A stretch of 7,390 nt of DNA from Alphaproteobacteria bacterium. GTDB taxonomy: Bacteria > Pseudomonadota > Alphaproteobacteria > Rs-D84. Location of the stretch: contig WQVP01000017.1 of assembly GCA_009785765.1 (NCBI GenBank), positions 1-7,390 of the forward strand, read 5' to 3'. Under the pieces are notes generated by a model. That model made no database searches and had not been told where the DNA came from. It saw only the letters and a list, made by a program, of their open reading frames with translations. The translations under genes were made by a program, and so were the position numbers. Positions 1 to 7,390 of the stretch are shown here, one piece after another. The stretch's first letter is position 1. Every line of letters starts with the position of its first letter.

Positions 1-108
1 CTTGGGAAAGATATGGATATTGATGGAATATTTACAGCATGCGACCGTGCCGCTGCCGGTCCCACTGCGCCCGCATCTGGTCTTTATTTTGTAAAAGTTG
101 ATTATTAA
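1..108 (+). CDS. truA: tRNA pseudouridine(38-40) synthase TruA, C-terminal fragment
   Basis: Frame 1 is open from the window edge to a TAA at 106-108, giving 35 residues that end ACDRAAAGPTAPASGLYFVKVDY in two readable blocks: a C-D-R-x3-G-P-T-A-P-A-x-G-L segment followed by a short V-x-Y end. This is the usual TruA carboxy terminus, where an Arg followed by AG-x-TAPA-x-GL and a final V-x-Y closes the fold. TruA isomerises uridines 38-40 in the anticodon arm of many tRNAs in the cytoplasm. The catalytic Asp lies upstream of the window, so only the tail is seen. The call rests on this short conserved motif. The next gene starts 60 bases later on the same strand. Confidence 0.82.
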   Translation, partial: LGKDMDIDGIFTACDRAAAGPTAPASGLYFVKVDY

Positions 109-117
109 AATAAATAG

Positions 118-146
118 TTGCGATTTTGTGCGGATAAGGATAAGAT
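118..146 (+). promoter_or_regulatory. possible promoter of the PAP2 gene
   Basis: TTGCGA at 118-123 and TAAGAT at 141-146 are separated by 17 bases and lie just before the phosphatase ribosome binding site. Each box matches the sigma-70 consensus at four of six bases, so this is weak. Read-through from truA is equally possible. Confidence 0.25.
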
Positions 147-168
147 TCCTATCTATAAAGGATTCTTT

Positions 169-711
169 ATGCACAATTTGAAATCATTAACTGCCTTATT
201 TGTGGCAATTTTTTTTACTGTTAAAACACAACCATCATATTCTATGTCCATTGCTGATATGGGAGGCTTGACCAGGATTATGATTCCTGTATATGCTTTT
301 GGTATGTCTATGAACGAAGAGGGATGGGACGGCGCCGCTCAATTTGCACAATCGTTTGCGGCAACGTCATTGGCGGTTTACGGCATCAAAGAGGGCATTA
401 ACGCAAGAAGGCCAGACGGAGGCGATGAAAAATCTTTCCCAAGCGGGCACACCGCTATGGCGTTCAGTGGTGCGACTTTTATACACAAAAGATACGGGCT
501 TGAACGTGCAATAATTCCGTATGCACTGGCCGGATTCACAGGCTATTCACGGTATCATGCTGGTAAACATTATGTGCACGATATCGCAGCCGGCGCATTG
601 ATAAGCAGTGTTATAACATGGAACCTTATCAGCAGATATAAAACAGATTATGACGTTAATGTGTCGGCCAGTCCAGACCATGTATACATGGGCTTTAAAA
701 CAATATTTTAA
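169..711 (+). CDS. secreted PAP2-family (type 2 phosphatidic acid phosphatase) protein
   Basis: A 180-residue protein with all three motifs of the PAP2/acid phosphatase superfamily: K-x6-RP (K74, R81, P82), PSGH (residues 91-94) and SR-x5-H-x3-D (S127, R128, H134, D138). The two histidines are the nucleophile and acid/base of a phosphohistidine mechanism. The start at ATG 169 is chosen because AAAGGA at 157-162 sits six bases upstream. It gives an N-terminus with one Lys, a hydrophobic stretch (residues 7-17) and a plausible cleavage region near residue 25. The longer reading from TTG at 118 adds 17 polar residues and has no ribosome binding site. Family members dephosphorylate lipids such as undecaprenyl pyrophosphate, phosphatidate or lipid A on the periplasmic side of the membrane; the substrate here cannot be told. 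It is short, with few membrane helices, so a soluble periplasmic or loosely membrane-bound enzyme is likely. It converges on comEC with three bases between the stops. Confidence 0.85.
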   Translation: MHNLKSLTALFVAIFFTVKTQPSYSMSIADMGGLTRIMIPVYAFGMSMNEEGWDGAAQFAQSFAATSLAVYGIKEGINARRPDGGDEKSFPSGHTAMAFSGATFIHKRYGLERAIIPYALAGFTGYSRYHAGKHYVHDIAAGALISSVITWNLISRYKTDYDVNVSASPDHVYMGFKTIF

Positions 712-714
712 TAA

Positions 715-2763
715 TTACCTGTGCCAAATACGGTTGTTGCGCACATGTTGAACCCGCCCGCTTTCGTAAATAACAAATGCGCCACGTAAAATTTCTGCGT
801 GGCAATTTGGTGCATCTATGTCAAATGGTGCAACAATAAAATCCAAATTTTTATCCGCACAAAGTTCATTTATATTATTTACAAGTGGCACAAATTGCCA
901 CACGTATGCAAGATTCCAATTCGGAGTTTTATAAAACAAAATATTATCATTGGTGCGTAAAACTGTAAAACGTTCACCATCAAAACCACGTCTTATTGGT
1001 GTGCGTACATCCGGCGTCCTTTGCCAATTGGATTGTTCCCATGATCCGAATATAAGTCTGTGCGGGGCCGAGCGCCCACGGTTAAATTGTAAAGTTCCAT
1101 CGTCTTGTCTGAATGCGACAAGTATATTGTCAGCGGAGGAATAAAACACAGGCCGTGGACGCATAAATAAAGAGCAAAGAGCAATTATCAAACAGCAAAC
1201 GACGATAATATATTTTGGCTGTTTGTAAAATGGTTGGTCATCTTTATCAACTATGAAAACCCAGCTTGCCATAGCCAGCACAAGAAGTGAAAGCGAAAAC
1301 CCGCTCATCTTTGGCATCATCACGCTTGCATGCGGAAGTGTTGTAATCCAATGAATAATTACCCGAACCAAATCATATACATGTGCGGCAAGGTCTAATG
1401 GAAGGAATATGCCGACCTGTGCGCTTAACGTGCCAAGCAACACAAGCGGCATAATAAGAAATGCAAAAAGTGGCAGGCACAAAATATTCCCAATCAACGA
1501 ATAAATCGGTATATGATAAAAATGAAATGCAATAAATGTAGCTGTGAATATGGTTGATATTATGTCTATTTTTGCGACCGACCATGCGCCATTTGCAAAT
1601 CTTTGTGCACGTGTGCGGACGATATATTTCCTGTCCCGAAATATCCAAAGTATTCCGTAAACAGCCGCAAATGATAATTGAAATCCGGCGGATAAAAGAA
1701 AGTACGGATTATAAAGCAAAAGTATAAACATAGCGATACTTGCGCTTCGCATAGAAAATATATTCCGTGCATAGACCAATGCCAAAAATCCAATGGTCGC
1801 CATAATAAACGCACGTATAGTCGGCGTGTTTGCACCAGACAATAACATATAAAAGCCAAGCGTTATAATCGTTGGAATAATTGCAATATTGCGAACAGGT
1901 ATTCGCCGGGTAAGATGTGGTATTAAACGTAAGATAAGATAAAAGAATAAATAAATCCATCCACCGACCAACATTAAATGAAACCCGGAAATTGAAAATA
2001 CGTGAACTATGCCGCTTATCCGGGCGGCCTCTAAATCTTCCTGTGGAAGCGCCCGCCGATAGCCAAGCATTAAACTTTCCGAAAGCGCAACCGCCCGAAC
2101 ATTATCATGTCGTGCGACGTTGTTTCGGATAACGTCACGAAGATGTGATATACCACGTGGCCCTTTGCCTTTCTCTATGACGTTTATTTCTGTGGCAAAT
2201 CCGACCGCATCAATATTGTTAAAAAATGCCCATTCAGAAAAATCAAAAGCATTTGGCGATGCCGCAGTGCCTGGCCGAAAAAGCGATCCCATCATGTGAA
2301 CTTTATCGCCAACGCCCGGCACAGCTATGTAATCTGGCCGAATGGTTATACGGGGTGTATGTTCATAAAACCGTGAACCATCCGCCGCAATAATGGTTGC
2401 ATTATTTATAAATAATCGCACCCGGTCATCGGTATAATCAATCGCACGTACTGTGCCAATAATTTCTGCGCCTCGCATATCGTGCGGAATTAAATTGCTT
2501 TGCCTGTTTTGTGTAAACCCTGTGGCATAGAAAAAGCCGGCCAAAGATAAAAGCAACGATATAATTAAAATTCTGGATACTATATTTGCGCTTGAATATT
2601 TATAAAAAATAATCAAGGCAATAACAGTTATTGCAAAAAATAAAAACGGGAATGAAAGATATGGCTCAAAAGGCAAGGCAAAATATGTGGCTATGCCCGT
2701 GCCAAAAACAAAAGGCGACCAAAGGAAAAAATTTGGATATTGCCGAGATAAAAATTCTTTCAC
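715..2763 (-). CDS. comEC: ComEC/Rec2-family DNA internalisation channel
   Basis: A 682-residue inner-membrane protein. Residues about 12-82 hold N-terminal membrane helices. Residues about 95-195 form the soluble DUF4131 (OB-fold-like) domain ending P-N-A-F-D (170-174). Residues about 225-505 are the Competence domain with its hallmark sequences SISGFH (257-262), GANTPTIRA (310-318) and SAGFQLSF (358-365). After a last hydrophobic helix (about 518-533) comes a soluble tail to 682. ComEC carries single-stranded DNA across the inner membrane during natural transformation. The tail lacks the HxHxDH metal-binding motif of the metallo-beta-lactamase domain found in many ComEC proteins, so no nuclease activity is predicted for it. 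The start is GTG at 2761-2763, supported by AAAGGAA (2771-2777 on the complementary strand) seven bases upstream. The gene follows the DUF559 cassette. A two-unit copy of the CTTTGCT heptamer lies in the last membrane helix. ComEC alone does not prove competence, since many genomes keep it without a full pilus system. Confidence 0.93.
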   Translation of the reverse strand: MKEFLSRQYPNFFLWSPFVFGTGIATYFALPFEPYLSFPFLFFAITVIALIIFYKYSSANIVSRILIISLLLSLAGFFYATGFTQNRQSNLIPHDMRGAEIIGTVRAIDYTDDRVRLFINNATIIAADGSRFYEHTPRITIRPDYIAVPGVGDKVHMMGSLFRPGTAASPNAFDFSEWAFFNNIDAVGFATEINVIEKGKGPRGISHLRDVIRNNVARHDNVRAVALSESLMLGYRRALPQEDLEAARISGIVHVFSISGFHLMLVGGWIYLFFYLILRLIPHLTRRIPVRNIAIIPTIITLGFYMLLSGANTPTIRAFIMATIGFLALVYARNIFSMRSASIAMFILLLYNPYFLLSAGFQLSFAAVYGILWIFRDRKYIVRTRAQRFANGAWSVAKIDIISTIFTATFIAFHFYHIPIYSLIGNILCLPLFAFLIMPLVLLGTLSAQVGIFLPLDLAAHVYDLVRVIIHWITTLPHASVMMPKMSGFSLSLLVLAMASWVFIVDKDDQPFYKQPKYIIVVCCLIIALCSLFMRPRPVFYSSADNILVAFRQDDGTLQFNRGRSAPHRLIFGSWEQSNWQRTPDVRTPIRRGFDGERFTVLRTNDNILFYKTPNWNLAYVWQFVPLVNNINELCADKNLDFIVAPFDIDAPNCHAEILRGAFVIYESGRVQHVRNNRIWHR
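1169..1183 (-). repeat. two-unit copy of the CTTTGCT heptamer inside comEC
   Basis: Fifteen bases, AAAGAGC twice plus one A on the plus strand, equal 2.1 units of the same 7-mer that fills the lipoprotein signal peptide at 5618-5649. On the coding strand it encodes residues 528-532, ALCSL, in the last membrane helix of ComEC, closely echoing the ALCSL of the lipoprotein leader. Two units could be chance. Confidence 0.5.
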
Positions 2764-2777
2764 GTGGTTTTTCCTTT

Positions 2778-2850
2778 ACCCTCTCCCCTCTGCGGGAGAG
2801 GATAGAGTTGGCTTGGCGACTTGTCGCCATAGCAACTCTTGGTGAGGGGT
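2778..2850 (-). repeat. left terminal hairpin element (IR-L) of the DUF559 cassette
   Basis: A structured element with two hairpins. Hairpin 1 pairs CCTCTCCC (2780-2787) with GGGAGAGG (2794-2801). Hairpin 2 pairs AGAGTTG (2804-2810) with CAACTCT (2833-2839) and continues inward with TGGCGAC (2814-2820) paired to GTCGCCA (2823-2829) around a two-base loop. The inner end, GGTGAGGGGT (2841-2850), stops one base short of the DUF559 stop codon. Its reverse complement matches IR-R at 3221-3293 in 13 bases at one end (2838-2850) and 15 bases in the other block (2791-2805), but not in the central stem. The outer end lies against the comEC ribosome binding site. Confidence 0.8.
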
Positions 2851-2851
2851 G

Positions 2852-3220
2852 TTATAATATTTGTAAATAATACTTTATTCTGTTTATAACTGTATTTATA
2901 TCAAGCATCACTTGTTCATCCGTAAAACGTAAAATGGTAAAGTCCTGGGCATTAAGATATTCTGTTCTTATTAAATCTTTGCGCTCTGCATGAAGTCCTG
3001 TGTGCGATGCGCCGTCCAGCTCAACAATCAATCGTTTTTCCAAACAGATAAAATCTGCAATATACTTGTTATCTATTGAATGCTGTCTGCGGAACTTATG
3101 CCCCAGTTGTTGATTGCGAACATACAGCCAAAGCTGTTTTTCGGCAACGGTTTGCGTCCGGCGTAATTCACGGGTACGCCCCTTCATAATATCGGAATAA
3201 TTTCTGTGTGACGTTTTCAT
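2852..3220 (-). CDS. DUF559 / Vsr-like endonuclease-fold protein
   Basis: A 122-residue protein that matches the DUF559 pattern: an N-terminal R-T-R-E-L-R-R stretch (15-21), an AEKQLW helix (26-31), KFRRQ (42-46), then the core D56-F-I-C through VELDG (66-70) and H73, and late LRF (97-99). In this family the Asp, the E-x-D (E67, D69) and the His correspond to the active site of the PD-(D/E)XK/very-short-patch-repair nuclease fold. Biochemical roles of DUF559 proteins are largely unknown. The start at ATG 3218-3220 is chosen because family similarity begins there and GGTGAG, supplied by the adjoining repeat element, lies four bases upstream. The frame is open further upstream to 3337, but that stretch only translates the 27-bp repeats (REQFPPLPL units), so I exclude it. 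The gene is enclosed by inverted repeat elements. Confidence 0.82.
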   Translation of the reverse strand: MKTSHRNYSDIMKGRTRELRRTQTVAEKQLWLYVRNQQLGHKFRRQHSIDNKYIADFICLEKRLIVELDGASHTGLHAERKDLIRTEYLNAQDFTILRFTDEQVMLDINTVINRIKYYLQIL

Positions 3221-3293
3221 ACCCCTCACCAAGTTTTTGTAGCACATGCGTTGCATGTTAACAAAAACTATCCTCTCCCGCAAGGGGAGAGGA
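3221..3293 (+). repeat. right terminal hairpin element (IR-R) of the DUF559 cassette
   Basis: Inverted counterpart of 2778-2850. ACCCCTCACCAAG (3221-3233) and CTATCCTCTCCCGCA (3268-3282) match IR-L exactly. Between them the sequence is unrelated to IR-L yet still folds: GTTTTTGT (3233-3240) pairs with ACAAAAAC (3261-3268), and ACATGC (3244-3249) with GCATGT (3253-3258). The second hairpin pairs CCTCTCCC (3272-3279) with GGGAGAGG (3285-3292). Read on the minus strand, its end GGTGAGGGGT runs directly into the DUF559 ATG and provides the Shine-Dalgarno sequence. Confidence 0.8.
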
Positions 3294-3352
3294 GGAAACT
3301 GTTCCCGCAAGGGGAGAGGAGGAAACTGTTCCCGCAAGGGGAGAGGAGGAAA
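3277..3352. repeat. 27-bp direct tandem repeat, 2.8 copies
   Basis: The unit begins CCCGCAAGGGGAGAGGAGG and ends AAACTGTT. Copies lie at 3277-3303, 3304-3330 and 3331-3352 (22 of 27 bases) and are identical where they overlap. The unit contains one arm of the outer hairpin of IR-R, so the array looks like repeated duplication of the cassette edge. The array ends exactly where the RNHCP stop codon begins (3353). A length of 27 keeps frame, which is why the minus strand stays open here. Confidence 0.9.
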
Positions 3353-3646
3353 TTATGGCAAGTCTGGATTTACAGAAATATTTATTATCATGTCAGTGCA
3401 ATCATTATCAGAAATTTTTTGATTTTTAATTTTGCCGCATGTCTCGCATTTATGGGTAATGGTTGTGGATGTGGCCGAAACCGGATGCATCATGCCCATG
3501 CAATCGCTTGCCCTGTCGCCCGGGCTTATGTCCACGCATTTTGACCAGAGGCAAGATGGGCAATGATTGGTGTATCCGTTGCCACGTACAAATGTGCTAC
3601 AATTTTCACATTTAAAATCTTCAATGGTTTTGGTGAATGTTTTCAT
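3353..3646 (-). CDS. RNHCP domain protein (small zinc-ribbon-like)
   Basis: A 97-residue protein matching the RNHCP family: F-K-C-x2-C (C13, C16), the signature N-H-C-P-x-C (27-32), then V-D-x-S-P-G-D-R-A (38-46) and C-M-G-M-M (49-53), with a further C-x2-C at 67-70. The Arg that gives the family its name is Thr here (TNHCP). The Cys/His pattern suggests zinc binding; the function of the family is not established. The start is ATG 3644-3646. No Shine-Dalgarno sequence precedes it, because the heptamer hairpin at 3647-3728 begins at the very next base and fills the whole gap from the gapR stop. Translation may depend on coupling to gapR or on a leader lacking a canonical site. The stop codon abuts the 27-bp tandem repeats. 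Probably co-transcribed with gapR. Confidence 0.82.
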   Translation of the reverse strand: MKTFTKTIEDFKCENCSTFVRGNGYTNHCPSCLWSKCVDISPGDRASDCMGMMHPVSATSTTITHKCETCGKIKNQKISDNDCTDMIINISVNPDLP

Positions 3647-3728
3647 AGTAATCAGTAATCAGTAACCAGTAATCAGTTGGATTATTCCAGATTAAAAAAC
3701 TGGTTACTGATTACTGGTCACTGGTTAC
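3647..3728. repeat. heptamer inverted-repeat hairpin, family A (TAATCAG/TAACCAG)
   Basis: The left arm (3647-3677) is AGTAATC, AGTAATC, AGTAACC, AGTAATC, AGT. The right arm (3699-3728, plus the T at 3729) is its complement in units TGGTTAC, TGATTAC, TGGTCAC, TGGTTAC. The arms match at 26 of 31 positions and all five differences are transitions. The 21-base loop contains a small TGGA...TCCA stem. The structure occupies the gap between the gapR stop codon (3729-3731) and the RNHCP start codon (3644-3646) with no spare base. Confidence 0.88.
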
Positions 3729-3977
3729 TTAAAGCCCCAAGGCCCGACGATACATTTTGGTCAGTTCATCAATTTCGTCCAATTCATCTGCATCCATGCG
3801 GCGAAGACGAACCATCTGGCGAATATATTTTGGATCGTATCCGGCGGACTTTGCCTCGGTCATGATTTCTTTGATGTCGGCGGCCAGGCTTTTTGCCTCT
3901 TCTTGCAATTTTTCAATTCTCTCGCAAATTTGTGTCAGTTGTGATGCATCCAATGCACCATGATTTGCATTTTTCAT
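3729..3977 (-). CDS. gapR: GapR family nucleoid-associated protein (DUF2312)
   Basis: An 82-residue protein with the DUF2312 layout: an N-terminal coiled-coil helix (about 12-45, ICERIEKLQEEAKSLAADIK), then EAKSAGYDPKYIRQM (41-55), the basic VRLRRMD (56-62), and a C-terminal helix with E65 and E71 ending YRRALG (76-81). Caulobacter GapR binds overtwisted DNA ahead of forks and RNA polymerase and helps gyrase and topoisomerase IV; it is 89 residues, close to this length. The same role is inferred here. The start ATG 3975-3977 is supported by AAAGGA (3987-3992 on the opposite strand) nine to ten bases upstream. It is divergent from pyk, a neighbourhood common in Alphaproteobacteria. It probably heads the leftward group with RNHCP, DUF559 and comEC, though the hairpin directly after its stop could reduce read-through. 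Confidence 0.92.
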   Translation of the reverse strand: MKNANHGALDASQLTQICERIEKLQEEAKSLAADIKEIMTEAKSAGYDPKYIRQMVRLRRMDADELDEIDELTKMYRRALGL

Positions 3978-4054
3978 TTTATTTTTTCCTTTACTTTGTT
4001 ATAATCTTGCCGTATATACTAGCACTAATTTTATAAAAAGCAAGGGAACATAAT
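3978..4054. promoter_or_regulatory. gapR-pyk divergent intergenic region with candidate -10 boxes
   Basis: This 77-base AT-rich gap must hold promoters for both directions. On the plus strand TATAAT (4000-4005) and TATACT (4015-4020) are candidate -10 boxes for pyk; TTTACT (3990-3995) lies 19 bases before the second. On the minus strand GTTATA (3998-4003) reads TATAAC for gapR. No strong -35 is seen for any of them. The pyk ribosome binding site AAGGGA (4042-4047) lies seven bases before its ATG. Confidence 0.4.
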
Positions 4055-5419
4055 ATGCACAAACTTACCAGAATCACCGCATCCATCGGTCCAACATCAG
4101 AATCCAAAGAAACAATTCGTGAAATGATTGCCAAAGGCATGAATATTGCACGCCTTAATTTCAGCCACGATACACACGAAGCACACGGCAAAAAAATCGT
4201 CGCCATTCGTGAATTGTCAGAAGAATTAAAAACTCCGATCGCAATTATGGCCGATTTACAGGGGCCCAAACATCGCATCGGCGACTTTGAAACCGATGAT
4301 AAATATCCATTAATCGTTGGCCAAGAATTTATATTGGATAATGATCCAACTCCTGGTAATTCCGCACGTGTTCAATTGCCAGACCCAGATGTATTAAAGT
4401 CTTTAAAAGTTGGCGACAGAGTTTTATTAAACGACGGAAAAATAGAATTGGAAGTTATGCAATCAACCGGCGCCTCTGTTATAACAAAAATTGTACGTGG
4501 CACAGAAATATGGTCAAGACGTGGTTTTAATATTCCAGATACCATGGTAGAGACCGGGATTTTAACCGAAAAAGACAAAAAAGATTTGGAGTATATTATC
4601 ACGCAAAACCCAGATTATGTTGCGGTTTCATTTGTTCAAAAACCAGAAGACATCAAAGAAGTCATAGAATTTATAAATGCACGTGGAAACAATACTATTA
4701 AAATAGTGGCAAAAATTGAAAGACCCCAGGCGCTGGAATGCCTTGAAGAAATTGCAGATATTGCGGACGCTATTATGGTTGCACGTGGCGATTTGGCCGT
4801 AGAAGTTGATTTCTGGAAAGTGCCTGCGATTACTCGCAACATGATAAGAATTTGCAGACGGAAAAACAAACCAATCATCATCGCAACACAAATGATGTCG
4901 TCAATGGTTAACTCTGAATTTCCAATGCGCAGCGAAATTTCCGACGTGGCACAGGCCGCATACCTTCGTGCGGACAGTGTTATGACGTCCGAAGAAACGA
5001 CGCTTGGCGAATATCCGGTTCTGGTTATGGATGCAATGCGCAAAATTTTAAAAGCGTCTGAATTTGATGCACGTGAAAATGTGCATGATTGGCAAAACCA
5101 TGAAAATTTACCAGAAAATGATTGGTCTCGCTCGGTTGTCTCTATGGCGTATTTGAACAAGTGCACGGCAATCGTTGTATTCGTACATGGCGGCCGTAAT
5201 GCACGTGCGATTTCCGCCCGCCGTCCGGACGTGCCAATTGTTGCAATATGCAATGACCAAGTGGCTGCAAACCAATTGGTTATGAATCGTGGCGTATTCC
5301 CGATTTATAATCCAGAGATGTTTGATAAACGTGATATCACCGGCGCACTTGCACATATTGGCGGAATCAAAGAGGGCAAGGTTGTGGTTGTTGACGACGA
5401 AACCGTGACGCTTCAATAA
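4055..5419 (+). CDS. pyk: pyruvate kinase
   Basis: A 454-residue enzyme that converts phosphoenolpyruvate and ADP to pyruvate and ATP, the last step of glycolysis. Seen in order: TRITASIGPTS (5-15), ARLNFSH (32-38; R33, N35, S37, H38), DLQGPK (67-72), the B-domain with GDRVLLNDGKI (120-130), LTEKD (170-174), VAKIERPQAL (218-227; K220 and E222 catalytic and metal-binding), DAIMVARGDLAVE (238-250; D246), ATQMM (277-281; T278) and SEETT (312-316; E314). The C-terminal domain (about 355-454) is complete. Lys72 in DLQGPK is the residue associated with K+-independent pyruvate kinases, so K+ independence is inferred. The normally near-invariant PTRAE and DGTDAVMLSGETA stretches read PMRSE and RADSVMTSEETT, a divergent version with the key Glu kept. 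It starts at ATG 4055 with AAGGGA upstream and is followed by an intrinsic terminator. Confidence 0.95.
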   Translation: MHKLTRITASIGPTSESKETIREMIAKGMNIARLNFSHDTHEAHGKKIVAIRELSEELKTPIAIMADLQGPKHRIGDFETDDKYPLIVGQEFILDNDPTPGNSARVQLPDPDVLKSLKVGDRVLLNDGKIELEVMQSTGASVITKIVRGTEIWSRRGFNIPDTMVETGILTEKDKKDLEYIITQNPDYVAVSFVQKPEDIKEVIEFINARGNNTIKIVAKIERPQALECLEEIADIADAIMVARGDLAVEVDFWKVPAITRNMIRICRRKNKPIIIATQMMSSMVNSEFPMRSEISDVAQAAYLRADSVMTSEETTLGEYPVLVMDAMRKILKASEFDARENVHDWQNHENLPENDWSRSVVSMAYLNKCTAIVVFVHGGRNARAISARRPDVPIVAICNDQVAANQLVMNRGVFPIYNPEMFDKRDITGALAHIGGIKEGKVVVVDDETVTLQ

Positions 5420-5446
5420 AAAATCGCCCATCGGGCGATTTTTTAT
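5418..5446 (+). terminator. Rho-independent terminator of pyk
   Basis: ATCGCCC (5423-5429), loop ATC, GGGCGAT (5433-5439), flanked by an A-run and a run of six T (5439-5444). The upstream side overlaps the pyk stop codon. The flanking A and T runs extend the stem, so it may also work from the other strand. Confidence 0.92.
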
Positions 5447-5549
5447 TAGGGATTAGGAACTAGGAACTAGTGGGTTTGGTGTTTGTGGATATAATTCCAA
5501 CAATCTCATACTAACTAGTTCCTAATTCCTAGTTCCTAGTTCCTAATTA
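5445..5549 (-). repeat. heptamer hairpin element, family B, copy 1 (CTAGTTC/CTAATTC)
   Basis: The left arm holds ATTAGGG, ATTAGGA, ACTAGGA, ACTAG (5445-5470). The right arm holds CTAGTTC, CTAATTC, CTAGTTC, CTAGTTC, CTAATTA (5515-5549). The ~44-base spacer contains CTCATACTAA near its right end. In reverse complement the element matches 7175-7276: 33 identical bases correspond to 5505-5537, and the spacer is recognisably similar. It begins where the pyk terminator T-run ends. Confidence 0.9.
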
Positions 5550-5558
5550 CTATTTTGT

Positions 5559-5586
5559 TTGATTTGCTTCAAAATAATCCTATAAT
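5559..5586 (+). promoter_or_regulatory. promoter for the lipoprotein gene
   Basis: TTGATT (5559-5564), a 16-base spacer, then a perfect TATAAT (5581-5586). A start site near 5593 would leave a leader of about 12 bases carrying the AAGGAA ribosome binding site (5594-5599). It follows the pyk terminator and family B copy 1, as expected for a separate transcription unit. Confidence 0.6.
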
Positions 5587-5604
5587 TCAAAAAAAGGAAT
5601 TATT

Positions 5605-6024
5605 ATGAAAAAAACATCTTTGCTCTTTGCTCTTTGCTCTTTGCTCTTTTTAACCGCATGTATGTACGGAAACCATCCAAACAGCGAAAGATTTTTCGCC
5701 AATGCAGATATAACGCAAGTTGATTGGACCGAGGTTAATGCCCGTGGGTCTGCTTGCCAATGGAATTGGTTTGGTCTTATCCCAACCGGAAGCAACAGCT
5801 TGCCAAGAGCAGTTGAAAATGCCGATATCGCCCGTCTTGCATTTGTTGATACAGATACAATCGTTTTCTTTCCATTATTTATTGCAGAATGCACAAACGT
5901 ATGGGGTGTAAAAACTGATGCAGCGACTGAAAGAGAGGCAAGAATCGCCACCGAACGTGAAGCCCGCCGGGCCGCCCGCCGTCCATTACCAACATTGGCA
6001 GACTATAACGGTGGGTTTGAATAG
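5605..6024 (+). CDS. TRL-like family lipoprotein with heptamer-encoded signal peptide
   Basis: A 139-residue lipoprotein. MKKT starts a type II signal peptide; the hydrophobic core SLLFALCSLLF (5-15) is encoded by the CTTTGCT tandem repeat, and the lipobox L-T-A-C places the lipidated Cys at 19. The mature part has GSAC (48-51), FGLIPTG (56-62), S-L-P-R-A-V-E-N-A-D-I (65-75), VDTDT (81-85) and E-C-T-x-V-x-G (95-101). This matches the TRL-like family pattern of a G/C-rich start, FG-x-I, and a late Cys-x-x-V-x-G; the role of that family is unknown. C51 and C96 could form a disulfide. Residues 107-126 are an Arg/Glu-rich helix with a near repeat ATEREARI/ATEREARR. The start ATG 5605 is supported by AAGGAA five bases upstream and a good promoter. 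It lies 36 bases before the outer-membrane protein gene, probably in one operon. Family membership is less certain than the lipoprotein call. Confidence 0.8.
   Translation: MKKTSLLFALCSLLFLTACMYGNHPNSERFFANADITQVDWTEVNARGSACQWNWFGLIPTGSNSLPRAVENADIARLAFVDTDTIVFFPLFIAECTNVWGVKTDAATEREARIATEREARRAARRPLPTLADYNGGFE
5618..5649 (+). repeat. heptamer tandem array, family D (CTTTGCT x 4.6), inside a signal peptide
   Basis: Units lie at 5618-5624, 5625-5631, 5632-5638 and 5639-5645, followed by CTTT. All are identical. Because 7 and 3 share no factor, each reading frame of this strand gives the same repeating heptapeptide, LLFALCS, which is hydrophobic and free of stops. No inverted partner arm is nearby, unlike families A to C. 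Confidence 0.95.
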
Positions 6025-6033
6025 GCAAAAATG

Positions 6034-6146
6034 TAAGAGGTAAGAGGTAAGAGGTAAGAGGTGCGAAAAATAAAAAACAAATTTTTATCAAGAATTTTAT
6101 ATTTGGTAATACCTCTTACCTCTTACCTCTTACCTCTTACCTCTTA
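6034..6146. repeat. heptamer inverted-repeat hairpin, family C (TAAGAGG x4 / CCTCTTA x5)
   Basis: The left arm holds four perfect TAAGAGG units (6034-6040, 6041-6047, 6048-6054, 6055-6061). The right arm holds five perfect CCTCTTA units (6112-6118 through 6140-6146). The arms can form an uninterrupted 28-bp stem around an AT-rich loop of about 50 bases. The left arm lies in the leader of the downstream gene and the right arm inside its coding sequence. Confidence 0.95.
6050..6054 (+). promoter_or_regulatory. repeat-derived ribosome binding site of the outer-membrane protein gene
   Basis: AGAGG inside the third TAAGAGG unit lies six bases before GTG 6061, standard Shine-Dalgarno spacing. Neighbouring units offer the same core at seven-base steps, but only this one is well placed. 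It decides the GTG start. It would be buried if the 28-bp stem forms in the mRNA. Confidence 0.6.
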
Positions 6147-7152
6147 TGCATCTTTCCTTCCCTCTGAAAACAGCCGGATAAAAGGCTTTCAATTCGGAAT
6201 TGCAGCGCCCGTTTTATCACCACTTCCGTTTGCATCAATAAACGGATTTGTCGGACAAAATTTCAAGCATACAAATAATTTTTGGACACGCCGTCTTGCA
6301 TGGCGTGCAGACTTTGCATTGCCGCACGGCATATCGGCCAGCGGTCGCATAGATGGCGTTGATATATATACCCGTGGCAGCGTTATGGGAATATCACATT
6401 CCCGGACATTTAATCGCAGAATAGATTTTGATTTTAATGATGACTATGTCGGCGGCCGTGTAAACTTTGATGGAATGGACGGGCGGTTTTTAATGGAGAA
6501 TAAACACTTTGGTGTTATGGCGGATTTTTTTCCATTTGCTGATACTTGGTTCTTTGGCGGATTTCGTGTATCGGGTGGATATTTTATCGGAAGCGCAATA
6601 ATAGACGCCCGTGCAACAAATACAAATCCTTTTCCAAATGATGATGGCTTTGTTGCCTCTGCCGGGCATGTTGCCTCTGAAACATTTTACATAGCATCCC
6701 GCCTGTCAGCCGGATCACAAATTGGCGCACGTTTAAATTGGAGATACAGCGGGCCGTACGTCGGGACCGGATTTGATCTTGGGATTTTTCGGGGACTTAA
6801 ATTATTCACAGATTTTGGCGTAGTATTCGCAAATGCCCCAAGATTGCACAATAGCGATATTCGTATCCCCGCATCCGATTTCCAGGCAAGGATTTTTGTT
6901 AATACAAGAGATGGCGTTGGATCAGACTGGATTAACATAGATATAAGCAATCCAAATTTAACAAAAGATAACTTAATTGCCGCATGGATTGCATCCGGCG
7001 GGATTGCCGGGGATATTGCTGATTTGGATTTTATGGCGATTAATACAGAATATCAAAGATTGCGTCAAAGTATTGTCCGTGATGCAAATCATGATATGCG
7101 AAATTTGCGATTCGTTCCGATGGTGCGGATTGGTTTGATGTATAGGTTTTAA
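6061..7152 (+). CDS. predicted outer-membrane beta-barrel protein
   Basis: A 363-residue protein. The N-terminus is basic (MRKIKNK), then hydrophobic (8-29), with a signal peptidase I site after T-S-Y-A at residue 30. The end of the leader, IPLTSYLLPLTSYA (17-30), is encoded by the CCTCTTA repeat. The mature part alternates aromatic and polar residues with many Gly, for example HFGVMADFFPF, WFFGGFRVSGGYF and GLKLFTDFGVVF, as expected of transmembrane beta strands. It ends V-R-I-G-L-M-Y-R-F; an aromatic C-terminus after alternating hydrophobic residues is the signal read by the BAM complex. No specific family is recognised, so the function is unknown. The GTG start is chosen for its spacing from the repeat-derived ribosome binding site and because it gives a full signal peptide; TTG at 6103 would lose the basic region. 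It follows the lipoprotein gene by 36 bases and ends in a terminator, so the pair is probably one envelope operon. Confidence 0.8.
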   Translation: MRKIKNKFLSRILYLVIPLTSYLLPLTSYASFLPSENSRIKGFQFGIAAPVLSPLPFASINGFVGQNFKHTNNFWTRRLAWRADFALPHGISASGRIDGVDIYTRGSVMGISHSRTFNRRIDFDFNDDYVGGRVNFDGMDGRFLMENKHFGVMADFFPFADTWFFGGFRVSGGYFIGSAIIDARATNTNPFPNDDGFVASAGHVASETFYIASRLSAGSQIGARLNWRYSGPYVGTGFDLGIFRGLKLFTDFGVVFANAPRLHNSDIRIPASDFQARIFVNTRDGVGSDWINIDISNPNLTKDNLIAAWIASGGIAGDIADLDFMAINTEYQRLRQSIVRDANHDMRNLRFVPMVRIGLMYRF

Positions 7153-7174
7153 AAATCGCCGGAAGGCGATTTTT
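7151..7174 (+). terminator. Rho-independent terminator of the outer-membrane protein gene
   Basis: AAAAATCGCC (7151-7160), loop GGAA, GGCGATTTTT (7165-7174): a perfect 10-bp stem ending in five T. It overlaps the stop codon and resembles the pyk terminator, sharing the ATCGCC core. Confidence 0.92.
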
Positions 7175-7276
7175 AGGAATCAGGAACTAGGAATTAGGAA
7201 CTAGTTAGTATGAGTTTGGCAGGAATTATGTTTACAAATTCCAAACTCACTAGTTCCTAGTTCCTAATTCCTAATC
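7175..7276 (+). repeat. heptamer hairpin element, family B, copy 2
   Basis: The left arm holds AGGAATC, AGGAACT, AGGAATT, AGGAACT (7175-7202). The right arm holds ACTAGTT, CCTAGTT, CCTAATT, CCTAATC (7249-7276). The arms differ only by transitions over most of their length. The spacer pairs GAGTTTGG with CCAAACTC. The block 7182-7214, which ends TTAGTATGAG, is identical to the reverse complement of 5505-5537. The element starts on the base after the terminator T-run. Confidence 0.9.
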
Positions 7277-7390
7277 ACTGTTTTGCACAATAAATTATGC
7301 AAAGCCTTTGTGTGCGCTGGAAAAGTCTTGTATATACAATGTTTCTGCGTGGTTGCCCTTAAAATTTATTTTTAATTATTTTAAAAAATC
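7277..7390. other. window end without a supported gene
   Basis: An AT-rich stretch with a perfect 12-bp palindrome TTGTATATACAA at 7328-7339 and a T/A-rich tail from about 7360. A 21-codon reading frame (7297-7362, plus strand) has no ribosome binding site and is not called. It is probably an upstream region of a gene beyond the window. Confidence 0.4.

Follow-up and report, generated by a model that had tools for sequence, protein, structure and literature searches.

The window analyzed here is a stretch of 7,390 nucleotides from an alphaproteobacterium of the lineage Rs-D84 (assembly GCA_009785765.1, contig WQVP01000017.1, positions 1 to 7,390 of the forward strand). Between 6033 and 6146 it contains two inverted arrays of seven-base units, one placed against the likely start codon of a predicted outer-membrane protein gene and the other within its coding sequence. 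The features discussed below are the following:

3647..3729, no strand assigned: intergenic heptamer hairpin with arms AGTAATC / ACTGGTT
5445..5552, no strand assigned: intergenic heptamer hairpin with TAGGAAC-like arms, its loop family common to 7173-7275
5605..6024, plus strand: TRL-type lipoprotein gene (PF13146), carrying a TCTTTGC array
5617..5649, plus strand: TCTTTGC array, which forms the hydrophobic core of the lipoprotein signal peptide predicted for this upstream gene
6033..6062, plus strand: left heptamer array, unit TAAGAGG, containing an SD-like AGAGG, an in-frame TAA and the initial G of the start codon GTG
6061..7152, plus strand: open reading frame of 363 aa without a Pfam family, with a predicted N-terminal helix (5-28) and then a beta-barrel, best PDB matches CarO
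6063..6110, plus strand: loop of the 30-bp stem, encoding the charged n-region RKIKNKFLSR...
6110..6146, plus strand: right heptamer array, unit CCTCTTA, encoding residues 17-29, the predicted signal-peptide core
7173..7275, no strand assigned: intergenic heptamer hairpin with TAGGAAC-like arms, inverted copy of 5445-5552

An earlier sequence-only reading of this DNA had described four TAAGAGG and five CCTCTTA units, and these were borne out at 6034-6061 (TRF array 6033-6062) and 6112-6146 (TRF array 6110-6146), respectively. The stem, which had been given as 28 bp, is longer: the longest exact stem has 30 bp, pairing 6033-6062 with 6111-6140 around a loop of 48 nt. It had also been claimed that the third left unit supplies a correctly spaced AGAGG and that the last G of the fourth opens the start codon, and the coordinates agree, with AGAGG at 6050-6054, a spacing of six bases, and GTG at 6061-6063. 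Folding of the hairpin region yielded a predicted energy of -60.5 kcal/mol, as compared to -22.1 (sd 3.2) over 200 shuffles (z -12). Rfam 15 gave no match above gathering score in the window, and assignment of the hairpin to a known RNA family was rejected on that ground.

As an array-derived in-frame TAA (6055-6057) stands two codons upstream of the GTG, translation in this frame could begin no earlier than position 6061. The sole other listed start ahead of the right array is TTG 6103-6105, the leader of which would contain neither K nor R. The analysis covered samples of the window's own genome, G000 (303,034 bases), and of G001, G002, G003 and G004, four congeneric species (368,638, 396,703, 388,633 and 392,034 bases). 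The residues following the GTG, MRKIKNKFL, are similar to those of the G001 ortholog, MRLKNKFL, which precede a different array; this likeness at the sequence level supports GTG 6061, short of proof, and we regard it as the likely start of the outer-membrane gene. The same likeness bears on the explanation that the architecture is an artefact, arising from misassembly in a fragmentary MAG or from a wrongly assigned start codon. G000 is indeed only 54.6% complete, in 102 contigs, and repeats are prone to misassembly. However, the n-region ahead of the array resembles that of the ortholog, the same architecture is present in separate genomes of the genus, and the G004 protein P0007 is present in five sources, and we consider an artefact very improbable.

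Structure prediction of the 6061-7152 product gave the helix at 5-28 followed by strands, with a mean pLDDT of 77.9 and lower values in the leader, where the helix is predicted with modest confidence. Among PDB entries it matches CarO structures best (E 3.8e-08, with a TM-score of 0.38 by query and 0.61 by target), and it is predicted to be an outer-membrane beta-barrel protein. The right array encodes residues 17-29 (IPLTSYLLPLTSY), a peptide that is only mildly hydrophobic (KD 0.84). Nevertheless, Sec signal peptide features are present, namely the n-region RKIKNK, the array-coded core, and S28 and A30 at -3/-1, and under a home-made rule the array-coded leader would qualify as a signal peptide, with Ala30 the likely last residue ahead of cleavage. 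The earlier claim that the right array encodes the end of the leader therefore stands for residues 17-29, but in taking in the cleavage site it went one codon too far, because Ala30 lies directly behind the array.

The sequence-only reading had proposed that homologues be inspected for an ordinary, repeat-free leader. Such leaders were found in G003 and G002; in G001, the ortholog has a heptamer hairpin leader built from another unit (AAGGCAT arms, 31-bp stem), and in G004 there is only a degenerate relic, with an 8-bp exact stem and no array called. The array-free leaders of G003 and G002 support the proposal that a repeat became the leader of the gene, an arrangement that recurs in tens of genes. 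One protein, P0005, looks mosaic-like, with a first part almost identical to that of P0004 and a last part almost identical to that of P0007, which may reflect recombination or a chimeric assembly. Scanning with the outer-membrane protein found no named close relative carrying the window locus. In the five nearest relatives by pyruvate kinase (60-61%; L203-L207, all MAGs, one of them from yak reticulum), a search at E 1e-5 found no homologue of the protein, and the 12-13 kb examined contained no array of score 10.

Period-7 arrays in genes and predicted signal peptides

The arrays at 6033-6146 are not isolated. In the samples, period-7 arrays numbered 177 in G000, 118 in G001, 12 in G002, 18 in G003 and 55 in G004. 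Over the analysis as a whole, the array score threshold ranged from 7 to 12 depending on the script, and unit names are consensus calls. In G000, each of the periods 5, 6 and 8-13 gave 0-15 arrays, and the multiples of seven, 14 and 21, gave 111 and 28. Many different heptamer units occur inside one genome. Within the window, the TCTTTGC array of the TRL-type gene is specific to G000, as the orthologs found in G001, G003 and G004 have array-free leaders; from this comparison, an ordinary leader would appear to have been replaced by an array in the G000 gene. Two other repeats were observed in the window: an imperfect AAAGAGC array (1169-1199) in a ComEC-like gene, the coding (minus) strand of which encodes the hydrophobic stretch IALCSLF, and three 27-nt direct repeats (TCCCGCAAGGGGAGAGGAGGAAACTGT-like; 3276-3352) that, together with a related stretch at about 2781-2802, flank a DUF559 gene on both sides.

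Predicted signal peptides were then searched for period-7 arrays, which were contained in 13 of the 70 in G000, 16 of 59 in G001 and 11 of 81 in G004, and in none of the 106 in G002 or the 87 in G003, species of the same genus that are nearly free of array leaders. The signal-peptide call is a crude home-made rule that favours hydrophobic arrays; one of the 13 G000 matches (L068) is probably false, and some array leaders are overlooked, such as that of the D-Ala-D-Ala carboxypeptidase of L057 (PF00768). Control periods of 4, 5, 6, 8, 9 and 10 gave 0-3 cases. The expectation under circular shifts was 2.84, 1.59, 0.19, 0.46 and 0.77 for G000 to G004, and the observed number was reached in none of 2000 shifts for each of G000, G001 and G004. 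Since the rule favours hydrophobic arrays, the contrast with G002, G003 and the orthologs carries more weight than the exact fold. The array-leader genes include those of a BamA-type Omp85 protein, LptD, LspA and this carboxypeptidase.

Array peptides in signal peptides have a mean KD of 2.08, 1.77 and 1.91 (G000, G001 and G004, respectively), and those of the arrays inside genes (62, 47 and 26 arrays) are hydrophilic, with means of -0.81, -0.63 and -0.76. Among the G000 arrays inside genes, one of the CCTCTTA type (L087:828-859, minus strand) encodes TSYLLPLTSY where a UvrC gene has its RNase H domain. Arrays at L053:9127-9157, L057:6719-6752 and L062:2255-2285 encode hydrophilic N-terminal stretches, such as ESRITNH, in proteins that lack a signal peptide.

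In a wider search, the pattern TWTGCYY x3 was present in 18 of the 201 genomes from the order and in 3 of the 289 in a class sample, the window's genome counted; as the pattern encodes hydrophobic peptides by design, these matches are an illustration and not a count. Some of those in other genera sit in N-terminal signals, such as that of the G020 carboxypeptidase (PF00768). In the YbeY-Lnt fusion of G008, an array occupies the first membrane stretch, and an upstream array in the same frame encodes a charged stretch. In the Lnt-type genes L184 and L186 of other genera, the former a YbeY-Lnt fusion, one array encodes the charged stretch KEQRAKS and the following one the first membrane stretch (MLYALCS or LLFALCS), in one frame.

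The enrichment of arrays in signal peptides may reflect tolerance rather than selection. Selfish or neutral slippage arrays could land everywhere and survive in signal peptides simply because almost any hydrophobic peptide is accepted at that site, with no benefit to the cell. Such tolerated insertion agrees with the presence of arrays inside genes, e.g., UvrC and the YbeY-Lnt fusion, and with the fact that G002 and G003 manage without array leaders. However, the excess over shifted positions is beyond random landing, even though strong tolerance could yield that excess, and the whole-leader copies found in G001 (see below) also exceed random landing. We give the explanation somewhat less than an even chance.

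Unit turnover and copying of leaders

Between G000, G001 and G004 there are 16 reciprocal-best ortholog pairs in which both leaders have arrays, and 14 of these pairs differ in unit; of the two same-unit pairs, one involves the G004 leader L094:19485, the unit of which is called GTGCTCT or TTTGCTC depending on the script. The turnover can be followed at a syntenic lipoprotein gene of three species, preceded by a gene ending in EMTLEEFEKVMNI. Its hairpins are built from the units AAAGAGC, AAGGCAT and AGAGCAT, each present in both arms. Their exact stems measure 24, 19 and 18 bp and enclose loops of 88, 83 and 79 nt. Similarly, nine dispersed G000 elements have loops that align and arms that both vary (TAGGAAC-, TAGGGAT- and TAGGCAC-like units). 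It is therefore likely that export signals in this group have been rebuilt again and again from repeat DNA.

Moreover, whole leaders of G001 recur ahead of unrelated genes. The lspA leader (PF01252) aligns over its full extent, both arms included, with those of the lipoprotein gene of the three-species locus and a PagL-like gene (PF09411), with 93% between the lspA and lipoprotein leaders across the 74-nt loop, and no similarity was found in the 250 bases on each side of the shared leaders (none with E below 0.9). A second group of four G001 leaders, which includes that of the window gene's ortholog, has another common loop, although the arm unit of one of the four differs. After masking of the arrays and low-complexity filtering, a leader match to an unrelated gene at E < 1e-6 was obtained for 10 of 17 array leaders in G001 (controls 2 of 39), 4 of 12 in G004 (controls 7 of 67) and none of 14 in G000 (controls 5 of 46), the array-free controls of G002 and G003 giving 4 of 104 and 2 of 80. 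Unfiltered, at E < 1e-3, array leaders matched in 2/14 (G000), 12/17 (G001) and 6/12 (G004) cases, and controls in 6/46 (G000), 8/39 (G001), 16/67 (G004), 27/104 (G002) and 10/80 (G003); as these controls also share leaders, the stricter filtered count was used. No copy of the window's own leader was found in the G000 sample. By these sequence matches, whole-leader copying is supported for G001, weakly so for G004, and is not seen for G000. Among the G000 hairpins, those at L066:3532-3688 and L080:4550-4698 lie in opposite orientation and have 76-nt loops that are 98.7% identical, and for that near identity we take them as recent copies.

These copies raise the possibility of a mobile cassette, in which a small inverted-repeat element, made up of the whole hairpin with its 5' leader, its start codon and the n-region, moves about and donates secretion leaders to new genes. 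A MITE, which is defined by terminal inverted repeats, target duplications and a mobilising transposase, is one candidate for such an element; inverted arms and copies ahead of unrelated genes were observed in G001. The 93% match of the lspA and lipoprotein loops, the further groups, the unrelated flanks and the excess of G001 array leaders over their controls would all fit a cassette. Against this, copying was seen neither for the window element nor among the 14 array leaders of the G000 sample, and no Y1 transposase (PF01797) was found in any of the five genus genomes searched (G000 being incomplete), as compared to 1 of 20 relatives and 5 of 14 control genomes. We find such a cassette rather unlikely. 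The absence of Y1_Tnp from these genomes also led us to reject mobilisation of the hairpins by a REP/RAYT system.

Possible translation control and frame variation

The sequence-only reading had suggested that the stem buries the Shine-Dalgarno sequence and the start codon, making translation responsive to temperature, a helicase or ribosome traffic. In the window both elements are indeed predicted to be paired, in a fold of high predicted stability. However, the SD region is predicted to be only 0.00-0.01 unpaired from 20 to 70 °C, so that a response to temperature is not supported, no melting being predicted. Neither does burial appear to be a kept feature, as the G001 ortholog is predicted to be mostly open at 37 °C (SD 0.68 and start 0.75 unpaired). 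The G004 relic has predicted values of 0.12 and 0.25, and ordinary leaders vary as well, with SD/start values of 0.52/0.08 in G003 and 0.11/0.38 in G002, the latter also low at the SD.

The position of the left arm was compared among 43 array leaders. It was detected in 23 of them, ending at most 25 nt from the start in 11 (the window's included) and further away in 12, and was undetected in the other 20; the hairpin is hence not needed for the signal-peptide role. The 11 close arms would suit a regulatory hairpin that hides the ribosome binding site and start until opened, while the remaining leaders speak against it. Together with the lack of predicted melting, this spread of distances weakened an RNA thermometer, or burial in general, as the main function. 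We thus consider regulation by the hairpin improbable, and burial of the SD and start at the window locus would likely be a by-product, as far as the predicted folds indicate, although translating ribosomes may open the stem.

The sequence-only reading had further stated that gain or loss of one unit in the right arm would shift the reading frame. This is true by arithmetic, but no length variant was found, the single near-strain pair (P0006 and the G001 protein) being equal in length at 450 aa. Genes of the bamA, lptD and lspA types are usually essential. A phase-variable locus, in which unit gain or loss toggles the outer-membrane protein, would profit from the frame-shifting length of the units and from the proneness of tandem heptamers to slippage. 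On the other hand, besides the equal lengths of the near-strain pair, such arrays also lie in bamA-, lptD- and lspA-type genes, where switching off would be harmful, and we regard phase variation as slightly less probable still than regulation by the hairpin. The slippage-prone nature of heptamers is a hypothesis cited in the available parts of two studies of such repeats (PMC4692102, PMC4679880).

A proposed origin of the leaders and known repeat systems

Our preferred reading, to which we assign a probability of roughly 0.7, is that the window hairpin is one of many inverted heptamer arrays and has been exapted as the leader of a gene, the left array lying against the likely GTG start and the right array supplying the core of the predicted signal peptide. 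As 7 is not a multiple of 3, each of the three frames of a heptamer array yields the same cyclic peptide of seven residues, so a pyrimidine-rich array is hydrophobic in any of them; the cyclic peptides LLPLTSY, LLFALCS, MLYALCS and LCLMPYA are examples. Moreover, because hydrophobic codons are pyrimidine-rich, the inverted partner should be purine-rich and can look SD-like, and partner arms with AAGAGG, AAGG or GGAG are often seen. An inverted hairpin of this kind would therefore be nearly usable as a secretion leader from the outset, and as hydrophobicity is the main demand on a signal peptide, the arrays may be tolerated there and sometimes retained. The arrays probably grow and change through seven-base slippage. 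Their arms probably stay matched because replication switches template between the two halves of the inverted repeat, which would bring the new unit into both arms and leave loop and gene as they were. We infer that slippage combined with template switching is the most economical account of matched arms with changing units. A broader claim, that a good share of the secretion leaders of this lineage is written in heptamers, that inverted heptamer hairpins act as interchangeable modules of start site and signal peptide whose unit changes in both arms from species to species at a constant locus, loop and gene, and that signal peptides evolve by repeat dynamics and not residue by residue, is tentative, and we would sooner doubt than affirm it.

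Several known systems share parts of this picture; unless otherwise stated, they are compared as described in the available portions of the source papers. Xanthomonas, Nostoc and Calothrix contain dispersed tandem heptamers, sometimes inverted, that vary in length and sequence between related species, and a slippage hypothesis linked to the polymerase footprint is cited for them (Rehm et al. 2015, PMC4692102). Like those repeats and the STRR-like class, the present genomes have many dispersed period-7 tandem arrays. Unlike here, the former are G-rich, mostly intergenic and dominated by one main unit per lineage, and coding of signal peptides, predicted here, is absent from their description (PMC4692102). 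In marine Beggiatoaceae, TAACTGA direct repeats are heptamers found just 5' of start codons, and many heptamers are translatable in one orientation (MacGregor, PMC4679880). They adjoin start codons from the upstream side, as here, but consist of one unit, almost always direct and 5' of the gene, whereas the present arrays are inverted and encode the leader; the term 'signal peptide' has no occurrence in the text of that paper (PMC4679880).

Rickettsia palindromic elements are, as here, palindromes lying in frame within unrelated alphaproteobacterial genes, and both arrays of the L184 YbeY-Lnt fusion gene are an example of such in-frame palindromes. Compared by their description, those elements are about 150 bp long with a family-conserved sequence and peptide, in contrast to heptamer arms of many units (PMC10969869), and no family-wide conservation was found here, where units differ between most orthologs (14/16 pairs). 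One repeat-derived predicted signal peptide is described for the RU-2 repeat of Yersinia YPO1552 (Delihas 2007, PMC2759123), which is a single gene with a fixed 168-bp repeat, whereas here the repeats occupy tens of genes and their units switch from one species to another. Constant-size variable-sequence tandem repeats of bacteria likewise combine a fixed length with a free sequence and many families per genome, but with units of 52 or 20-21 nt instead of heptamers (Subirana and Messeguer 2021, PMC8161180); 'signal peptide' does not occur in that text. Finally, template switching homogenises the arms of inverted repeats in coding DNA (Abraham and Hazkani-Covo 2021, PMC8604942). It would keep arms complementary while the coding sequence changes, as we propose, although it was shown in yeast and on short repeats, and for the present arrays it is a proposal.

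No report of heptamer arrays as signal peptides was found in the titles and abstract openings of the open-licence PMC papers among the matches listed. What appears to be new is the scale of the phenomenon, together with the switch of units from one ortholog to another and the way in which an inverted heptamer hairpin is linked to both a start site and a signal peptide. Signal peptides are nearly free of sequence constraint, and the origin of new ones is rarely observed; here, orthologous leaders made of different repeat units form a traceable series. The case also makes it testable how inverted arrays remain matched while their unit changes. Overall, it suggests a simple rule, resting on a unit length of seven, prime to three, and on the pyrimidine richness of hydrophobic codons, by which repeats can turn into expression and export signals.
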